A program made the translations under genes and the position numbers. From the IMG/VR virus record IMGVR_UViG_3300037584_000674, positions 1 to 34,662 of that record: a stretch of 34,662 nt of DNA. One strand, written 5' to 3'. The notes beneath the pieces were generated by a model, which saw only the letters and a program-made list of their open reading frames with translations, was not told the DNA's origin and ran no database searches. Shown piece after piece: positions 4,874 through 11,529 of the stretch. The stretch is from a virus. Numbering within the stretch: position 1 is the stretch's first letter; every line of letters begins with the position of its first letter.

Positions 4874-4903
4874 TAGATACCAAGCCCTCCGTAACCATGT
4901 CAA
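4874..4903 (-). promoter_or_regulatory. Sigma70-like promoter of terS, apparently leaderless
   Basis: On the minus strand a perfect -35 TTGACA (4898-4903) and TATCTA (4874-4879) are separated by 18 bp. The -10 ends only 5 bases before the ATG at 4868, so the RNA would begin about at the start codon. A GGAGG lies between the boxes but is 17 bases from the ATG and would not be in such a transcript. Confidence 0.5.
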
Positions 4904-8534: not shown

Positions 8535-8543
8535 AACAGAATA

Positions 8544-9824: not shown

Positions 9825-10333
9825 TGAATGAAGTTAATGATAATAATGTTAAAGACAAGAATCTGGTTATTTGGAATCAGGCTAAAGAAACTGATCCTCG
9901 TTTCACTAAGAGGGTTTCCTTTGGAGCTAGGAGTTTTACTTCTATTGATGCTCACTATCAAATCAGACGAGCTACAGAGATCTTCGGACCAGTTGGTGCA
10001 AGTTGGGGATATGATGTCAAGTATGATACTCTAACTATGGACAACAAAGCATTTCAATTTGCTGATGTATCTATATGGGTTGGTAAACCTGAATACAAAT
10101 ATGGTCCAGTAAGAGGTTGTAATTTATTGGTAGATGCTAAAGGCAGAGTAGATGATGATGCACCTAAGAAGGCATTGACTGATGCTCTAACAAAAGCACT
10201 ATCACATCTAGGATTCAATGCTGATGTATTCATGGGTATGTTTGATTCAAACAAATATGTGAAACAGCTTGAAGAAAAATACAAGGGTAATGTTGATAAA
10301 TCAAAAGTACAGGAGGTAAATACTAATGATTAA
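9824..10333 (+). CDS. Rad52/DdrA-like single-strand annealing protein (169 aa)
   Basis: Features typical of the Rad52-superfamily annealases (Sak/DdrA-like) are IDAHYQIRRATEIFGPVG (residues about 40-57), a beta-rich middle, and KKALTDALTKALSHLGFNAD before VFMGMFDSNKYV. This is the partner of the YqaJ exonuclease for annealing ssDNA and forming concatemers. AGGAGGT lies before the ATG. The C-terminal tail is Lys/Glu-rich. The assignment to this subfamily is from pattern, not profile search. Confidence 0.75.
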   Translation: MNEVNDNNVKDKNLVIWNQAKETDPRFTKRVSFGARSFTSIDAHYQIRRATEIFGPVGASWGYDVKYDTLTMDNKAFQFADVSIWVGKPEYKYGPVRGCNLLVDAKGRVDDDAPKKALTDALTKALSHLGFNADVFMGMFDSNKYVKQLEEKYKGNVDKSKVQEVNTND

Positions 10334-10736
10334 TAAAGTAATACTTGTAGGTAGAACTGGTACAGATCCAGAGATCAAGACTATCAAGTCTGGTGAGATG
10401 GCTATTATGTCTATCGCTACTACTGAGAAAGTCAGAGATAAAGACACTCAGCAAATGACTGATAAAACTACTTGGCATAAGGTAGTTACATTTGATCCTA
10501 ATCTATCAAAGACTATCAAGAACTATGTATCAAAAGGTACTATGTTATACATTGAAGGTCAGATAGATGTATCACAATATACAGATAGTAATGGTAACAA
10601 GAGGTATAACACATCAATACTAATACCAAGATACTCTGGTGTTATGAAGATGTTAGGTGGTAAGAATGATAAGTCTGTAGAATCAGTTAATGATGATGCC
10701 TTACCAGATGATGATATACCTGACATACCATTTTAG
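10326..10736 (+). CDS. ssb: Single-stranded DNA-binding protein
   Basis: A bacterial-type OB fold: MINKVILVGRTGTDPEIK, then TTWHKVVTF, KGTMLYIEGQIDV, and a disordered acidic tail ending DDDIPDIPF, the hallmark tip that recruits host replication and repair proteins. Length 136 aa is slightly short because the linker is brief. Shine-Dalgarno AGGAGGTAAA lies inside the annealase end. As the last of the recombination set it should coat ssDNA for annealing and replication. Confidence 0.92.
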   Translation: MINKVILVGRTGTDPEIKTIKSGEMAIMSIATTEKVRDKDTQQMTDKTTWHKVVTFDPNLSKTIKNYVSKGTMLYIEGQIDVSQYTDSNGNKRYNTSILIPRYSGVMKMLGGKNDKSVESVNDDALPDDDIPDIPF

Positions 10737-10737
10737 T

Positions 10738-11303
10738 TTCCATATGGAACTGTGTAGGAAAGACATAAGGTAGTGAGCGTAAAGCACAGCTGGTGGCTAC
10801 ACGCCTACACAGAAAGTTTTAAAAGTTTCGTGATACTGAGTAGCTCTCGGTATCGGCTGACTGAATAATGTCTATACAGAGGCATAAGGTACACTAGAGA
10901 TGAAGTATGGGCAAATGCCTGAGGTACTCGAAGGTGGTTGTAAGTAGGCAAATGATGAATGTATATCTGTAGCTGAAAGCATGAGGGTAATAACACTAAT
11001 CCCTCGCCCTTGGCGAATAGATCTATTTTATGCAAAGGATAAAGACTAGGAGTCTTTTCGTAGATCTAAAAGTTTCCCCTGAGTTATGTAAGGTAAAACC
11101 TTCACCTAGCTAGGTTGATGGGGAATTAAGGTGCTGTATCAAATTATATTGAAAGGAAAATATGTTTGTGTATATCCTCTTACTATAAGCACCTTTATAT
11201 ATATGGTTGGGGAATAAGGGCGAAGTATAAAGCCATCCAGGAAAACCCATTAAATTATTCCTGGTTCATGAATTGACATGATATAAACAAAGCCATATAT
11301 ATA
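10738..11303 (+). ncRNA. Candidate large structured RNA (no credible ORF)
   Basis: About 570 bp without a plausible gene but tiled with perfect or near-perfect helices. Helix arms are 10750-10758/10804-10812 (9 bp), 10832-10840/10846-10854 (9 bp with one G-T), 10983-10987/11001-11005, 11006-11008/11012-11014, 11041-11047/11051-11057 (7 bp) inside the repeated TAGATCTA at 11018-11025/11061-11068, 11074-11079/11120-11125 (6 bp) enclosing 11090-11094/11098-11102 and palindrome 11104-11115, 11128-11135/11188-11195 (8 bp), 11196-11206/11293-11303 (11 bp) and 11237-11243/11258-11264 (7 bp). It looks more GC-rich than its neighbours by eye. It follows ssb on the same strand and may be read through. 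Class unknown; I do not recognise GOLLD, ROOL or a group I intron core. Confidence 0.5.
11273..11301 (+). promoter_or_regulatory. Sigma70-like promoter of the gene at 11308, apparently leaderless
   Basis: TTGACA (11273-11278) is separated by 17 bp from TATATA (11296-11301). The ATG at 11308 lies 6 bases after the -10, so the transcript would start at or near the start codon. The -10 lies within the 11-bp inverted repeat 11196-11206/11293-11303, so transcription and RNA folding could interfere. Confidence 0.5.
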
Positions 11304-11307
11304 ACCT

Positions 11308-11529
11308 ATGGTACTTAAATCTCAATTAGATGAGTTAATAGAAACCTTAAATGATTATAGTGCTTACTTAAAACAGTTTGGGTATGATAAAGATACTATA
11401 TTCTGTGCGTTTGCAGTAACAGCTATGTATCTAACTGGTGAAAGAAGCACAAAAAATATTGGTAAATCTATAAAAAAAAAAGTAGATAGTATTAGTGTTG
11501 TGCCAAGTACAAATCACACAGTTCATTAG
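11308..11529 (+). CDS. Hypothetical protein at the end of the rightward arm (73 aa)
   Basis: A helical N-terminus (LDELIETLNDYSAYLKQFG) with a short hydrophobic segment (IFCAFAVTAMYLTG) and a Lys-rich tail. There is no Shine-Dalgarno, which fits a leaderless transcript from the promoter at 11273-11301. Its 3' end overlaps that of the leftward nuclease gene by 38 bp. Function unknown. Confidence 0.5.
   Translation: MVLKSQLDELIETLNDYSAYLKQFGYDKDTIFCAFAVTAMYLTGERSTKNIGKSIKKKVDSISVVPSTNHTVH

Follow-up and report, generated by a model that had tools for sequence, protein, structure and literature searches.

Comparative analysis points to a tandem array of exchangeable structured RNA modules between ssb and the last early gene of a phage contig

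The gene-free island behind ssb

The end of the early operon in a phage contig (herein the window, all 34,662 nt of IMG/VR record IMGVR_UViG_3300037584_000674) raises the question of what a stretch without genes encodes, and whether it does so as one RNA or as several. The gene-free island extends from the stop codon of ssb (positions 10734 through 10736) to just 5′ of an ORF at 11308 through 11529 (herein ORF2), for which neither Pfam nor PHROG gave a match. A structured RNA of about 570 nt had been predicted here, and its boundaries, 10738 through 11303, are right: the ssb stop lies at one side and ORF2 at the other. The accompanying claim that the stretch has no plausible ORF agrees with our data. 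The sole ORF of at least 50 aa inside it is a minus-strand TTG frame of 76 codons (10805 through 11035), and a hidden ORF was rejected because no conserved coding frame is common to the islands of 47 distinct relatives. Separately, an extra ORF of ∼109 aa lies between ssb and the array in 3 of the 47 distinct islands (named contigs: L007, L013, L014, and L058).

The plus strand of the island folds to −154.4 kcal/mol, and the expected excess over shuffled controls was found (z = −2.99; 0 of 100 shuffles as good); an equally good fold is reached in only 3 of 172 windows of that length across the contig. As the minus strand folds almost equally well (z = −2.83), the strand was chosen by homology: an Rfam match and the cyanophage relatives (both below) place the RNA on the plus strand, in the sense of the early genes. 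The island had also seemed richer in G+C than its surroundings, which is true but modest (38.3%; contig, 33.3%; early arm, 34.5%); values as high are found in 7 to 9% of same-size windows. Hairpin-like sequence also occurs in other gene-free gaps of the window, at 4899 through 5094 and at 8535 through 8609, the latter containing GAGGGCAG../..CTGCCCTC.

The helices proposed for the island are real: the 11-bp closing helix pairs 11196 through 11206 with 11293 through 11303, and compensatory changes are clear across relatives in two parts of the island, the modules M2 and M5. Three outcomes had been named that would count against the original prediction, namely no covariation, no folding excess, and a conserved ORF; none was obtained. 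The island is structured, as predicted, and covaries in relatives, but the idea of one large ornate RNA was rejected because its parts are gained and lost separately, being present or absent independently across relatives. On this comparative evidence, about six structured modules lie in tandem between ssb and ORF2, where the early operon ends (Table 1).

Table 1. The RNA array of the window, its joints, and the genes on either side
Feature	Position	Strand	Description	Basis or occurrence
ssb	10326–10736	+		Pfam SSB, E 8e-25
M1	10737–10812	+	Hairpin UUCC/GGAA (10738–10749); stem CUGUGUAGG/CCUACACAG (10750–10758 with 10804–10812)	
Double joint	10814–10828	+	AAGTTTTAAAAGTTT, M1/M2 border; AAGTTT at 10814 and 10823	
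M2	10826–11017	+	Divergent manA-like RNA; closing stem UUCG (10827–10830) with CGAA (11014–11017)	
Private hairpin domain	11018–11068	+	Stem UAGAUCUA/UAGAUCUA	Sequence, island comparison
Joint 5′ of M3	11070–11075	+	AAGTTT	BLAST break points, word count
M3	11073–11126	+	UUCCCC/GGGGAA stem enclosing AAGG/CCUU and CCUAG/CUAGG	
M4	11130–11193	+	GGUGCU/AGCACC hairpin	In 30 of 47 islands
M5	11196–11303	+	Pseudoknotted RNA, 11-bp closing helix	Covariation
ORF2	11308–11529	+	73 aa, conserved, last early-arm gene	ORF list and relatives

Modules, joints, and exchange among relatives

Most of the relatives compared are metagenomic contigs, often fragmentary, and the rest are isolate cyanophage genomes. 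In this set, whole cassettes have been acquired, lost, and swapped, and the breaks lie at or close to AAGUUU joints; BLAST alignments to the window break at ∼10735, 10816 through 10819, 11067 through 11071, 11126, and 11195 through 11200. With 18 recognizable module types, there are 19 arrangements in the 20 islands of the window's clade and 34 in all 47. The window and contig L003 encode identical SSB proteins, yet L003 is without M1 and M2. A second array site, with further module types, lies beside a DUF932 gene in three contigs (L068, 2552 through 3200; L089, minus strand, 5010 through 5536; L045, minus strand, 1792 through 2090).

The joint word begins at the gene itself, the ssb stop UAG and the following UUU forming the first AGUUU joint of the array. 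AAGTTT occurs 77 times in the 47 islands versus 9.4 ± 2.6 times in shuffles, an approximately eightfold excess that is descriptive, the islands being related. Predicted pairs crossing AAGTTT joints are fewer than at other positions (permutation, 0.004), and of two pairing tests it is this weaker one, of spanning pairs, that supports the joints as boundaries. The stricter proposal, self-closure of every joint-to-joint segment, was dropped; about half of the segments do close, and the test is not significant.

The modules differ in how widely they occur. An exact M1 core was found in 21 marine phage stretches and the module in 13 of the 47 islands; for M3 the figures are 25 viral stretches, including L134, probably a chance match, and 20 islands. 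Among the collected islands, the hairpin domain at 11018 through 11068 is confined to the window and a near-identical copy, L001. M4 is the usual 5′ neighbor of ORF2 in a second clade, and most islands have M5 and M4 directly 5′ of ORF2; these two may have a role in cis.

The individual folds were examined for pairs changed on both sides; the module alignments contain related sequences, and the pair counts consequently overstate independence. The M2 alignment of 33 homologs keeps 99.3% of base-pair cells, versus 91.2% in shuffles and 33 to 50% in slid controls, and 13 of its 43 pairs change on both sides. For M5, 97.1% of cells are paired (slid controls, 28 to 46%) and seven pairs have changes on both sides. 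Its pseudoknot joins GGG at 11209 through 11211 to CCC at 11246 through 11248, the latter in the loop of the CCAGGAA/UUCCUGG stem (11237 through 11243 with 11258 through 11264); at one pair of the pseudoknot, eight relatives have G-C and four have C-G. M1 also has seven such pairs, all contributed by one divergent homolog (L193), which makes its support weaker. Rfam scans gave no convincing match for modules other than M2, rows for snoRNA and HOTAIR being rejected as noise, and no match to antitoxin RNAs among the modules scanned.

The phage itself is a podovirus-like marine phage, probably a pelagiphage. Its nearest isolate by terminase is Pelagibacter phage EXVC031P Hodr (64%), on which the assignment to a SAR11 host is based; Hodr is itself without the array, having neither manA nor any of the module cores searched, and the island DNA had no match among isolate phages. 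The ends of the contig (1 through 1768 and 32886 through 34662) repeat one region at 89% identity, and the contig therefore probably runs beyond a full circle of ∼32.9 kb, joining two strain variants.

The manA-like module and the settings of manA in other phages

No known family had been recognized in the stretch. This stands for GOLLD and ROOL, whose Rfam covariance models had no match in our scans; however, one third of the stretch, within its largest module (M2), is a subthreshold match to manA (RF01745). In a relaxed scan, 10834 through 11013 aligns with the whole model (1 through 192) at 33.3 bits (E = 7e-7), and a single-family search gives E = 9.7e-9. Matches in the same register, at 29.7 to 43.1 bits, were found in 15 other marine phage contigs. 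Conversely, a model built from 33 M2-type sequences (R1) finds manA of Synechococcus phage S-SSM7 (E = 6.5e-7) and of P-SSM2 (E = 0.0026); it did not detect manA of S-CREM1 and is for that reason a narrow model.

M2 thus has a full-length significant alignment and reciprocal detection, together with the conserved, covarying structure described above. It shares with manA the in-register alignment to the whole model, the GACUGAAUAA and UAAUCCC motifs, and overlapping stems. It differs in an additional UUUCG/CGAA closing stem and in lying in an RNA array rather than 5′ of a metabolic gene. Because it misses the curated gathering cutoff of RF01745 (33.3 versus 55.2 bits), we class M2, on sequence and predicted structure, outside the manA family, as a divergent relative. 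Direct copies of GGCAAATG at 10910 through 10917 and 10947 through 10954, suggested as a source of alternative pairings, both exist. Relatives conserve the first, as a hairpin loop, and do not conserve the second, so alternative pairing is unlikely and was rejected.

A short M2 pattern matched 84 stretches, 13 of which were judged by eye to be chance. In a cellular genome collection the M1 pattern was not found, and the single M2-pattern match, in an Anaerolineales metagenome-assembled genome, was unsupported by R1. Likewise, R1 supported none of three IMG/VR stretches with the canonical manA pattern.

Its settings in other phages are the main evidence on what manA does. The 2010 description placed this marine and cyanophage element in possible 5′ UTRs and listed it as a riboswitch candidate, probably cis-regulatory (Weinberg 2010; PMC2864571), and Rfam, which revised the alignment in release 14 (PMC7779021), files it as cis-regulatory. 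M2, and perhaps M4 and M5, could accordingly be a riboswitch or leader of the downstream gene, here ORF2, 5 nt before which M5 ends. Near-consensus sigma-70 promoters placing starts near the first helix of manA in cyanophages and two further lineages would also fit a riboswitch leader, as would terminator-like hairpins after manA in P-SSM7 and P-HM1.

The settings of manA, however, do not generally fit cis-regulation. In S-CREM1 it abuts tRNA-Leu on one side and tRNA-Asn on the other; in S-SSM7 its end is the exact start of tRNA-Gly, and in P-TIM68 the gene after it is convergent. Two marine phage contigs (L070 and L109) have manA, then a T-run, a new TTGACA..TATAGT promoter, and only then a gene. 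The genes downstream are unrelated: in cyanophages a purL-annotated gene (P-SSM2), transaldolase (P-RSM6), gp32 (P-HM2), and unknown ORFs, and in marine phages DUF932 genes among others; upstream neighbors in the latter we take, with names (DUF932 included) read from translations, to be DNA polymerase-like and ParB-like. In the window, M2 does not occupy a 5′ UTR, whether of a metabolic or a phage gene, three further modules separating it from ORF2, and several islands have ORF2 without M2. We consider cis-regulation unlikely; judged by genomic setting, manA fits a trans-acting RNA better than a one-gene switch, which suggests that the manA-like RNA is free-standing and not a switch for the following gene.

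Small hypothetical coding sequences are annotated over cyanophage manA in P-SSM4 (164844 through 165009), P-HM2 (4792 through 4967), S-SSM5 (116413 through 116582), P-HM1 (112755 through 112922), and S-SSM7 (151363 through 151563); these are probably spurious.

Possible roles of the RNA cassettes

We lean, with some reserve, toward an array of stand-alone structured RNA cassettes, expressed early and acting in trans on the host. The array would be transcribed with the early genes through ssb, and the transcript would be cut at the joints into single small stable RNAs. The RNase E rule is RN↓WUU, with which AG↓UUU joints are consistent. The released RNAs might then bind putative host factors in trans. 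Loci that keep an early position while their content changes rapidly are typical of counter-defense and host-takeover genes, and this resemblance makes protein-binding decoys or inhibitors our first guess.

A simpler function could follow from the position of the array. It sits where early and late genes converge, and no intrinsic terminator was found there; any strong fold at the 3′ end of the early operon might protect the message or slow polymerase meeting the convergent late operon. The modules would then be interchangeable, as they are, since only stability would matter. Such a stabilizer or insulator has no need of invariant single-stranded motifs such as UGACYGAAYAA and CAAAUG or of the M5 pseudoknot, and it leaves unexplained why these modules are also found elsewhere, in some cases with a promoter of their own, and why some islands are only ∼120 nt long. 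We regard it as improbable.

The modules might instead be selfish or passive elements, small mobile DNAs propagated by recombination at AAAGTTT and without function for the phage. Their presence/absence pattern, their common joint word, and their spread across lineages are what such elements would produce. Compensatory changes, by contrast, imply selection on the RNA, and neither a transposase nor terminal repeats were seen in the modules. Copy number is also against it: repeats would often be expected of a selfish element, yet manA is present exactly once in 13 of 22 contigs tested and is absent from the others, whatever the site. This explanation appears very unlikely.

Trans-acting cassettes remain the reading we prefer, to which unit-wise exchange at one locus, a manA-like copy number of no more than one per contig, and the lack of a tie to neighboring genes point. 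A broader proposal is more tentative: RNA cassette islands may be a class in which a fixed early locus carries at least 18 kinds of free-standing RNAs on a common joint, exchanged like gene cassettes, as an RNA-only effector arsenal against hosts such as SAR11 and cyanobacteria, with manA as an effector rather than a riboswitch. What structured phage RNAs such as manA, wcaG, GOLLD, and ROOL do is a long-standing puzzle, for which the array gives a ready list of cassettes for testing; revisiting the cis-regulatory label of manA in genome annotation is also suggested.

In the literature, mostly that of nonsubscription journals, we found no function assigned to manA and no description of exchangeable RNA arrays. 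GOLLD and ROOL are large structured phage RNAs, often encoded close to tRNA islands, to which no function has been assigned (PMC12286853), and manA likewise abuts tRNAs in S-CREM1 and S-SSM7; they are, however, single large ornate RNAs, whereas here there is a row of small exchangeable modules. By analogy, RNA anti-CRISPRs (Racrs), small structured phage RNAs often encoded just behind a promoter, are a precedent for phage RNAs that bind host defense proteins (PMC10651486), although Racrs mimic CRISPR repeats and the array modules are more varied and often larger.

A comparable arrangement is in S-CREM1 (OP535465, 9745 through 10643), where wcaG, manA, and an abiF antitoxin-type RNA lie together. 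This cluster likewise groups several structured RNAs, one being manA, but has interleaved tRNA genes in place of AAGUUU joints, and its other members are named families. Given its place among tRNA genes there, wcaG may also be a free-standing phage RNA. Weak, subthreshold wcaG matches occur in cyanophages without a full wcaG match (L279/NC_015282, NC_015285, and NC_015289).
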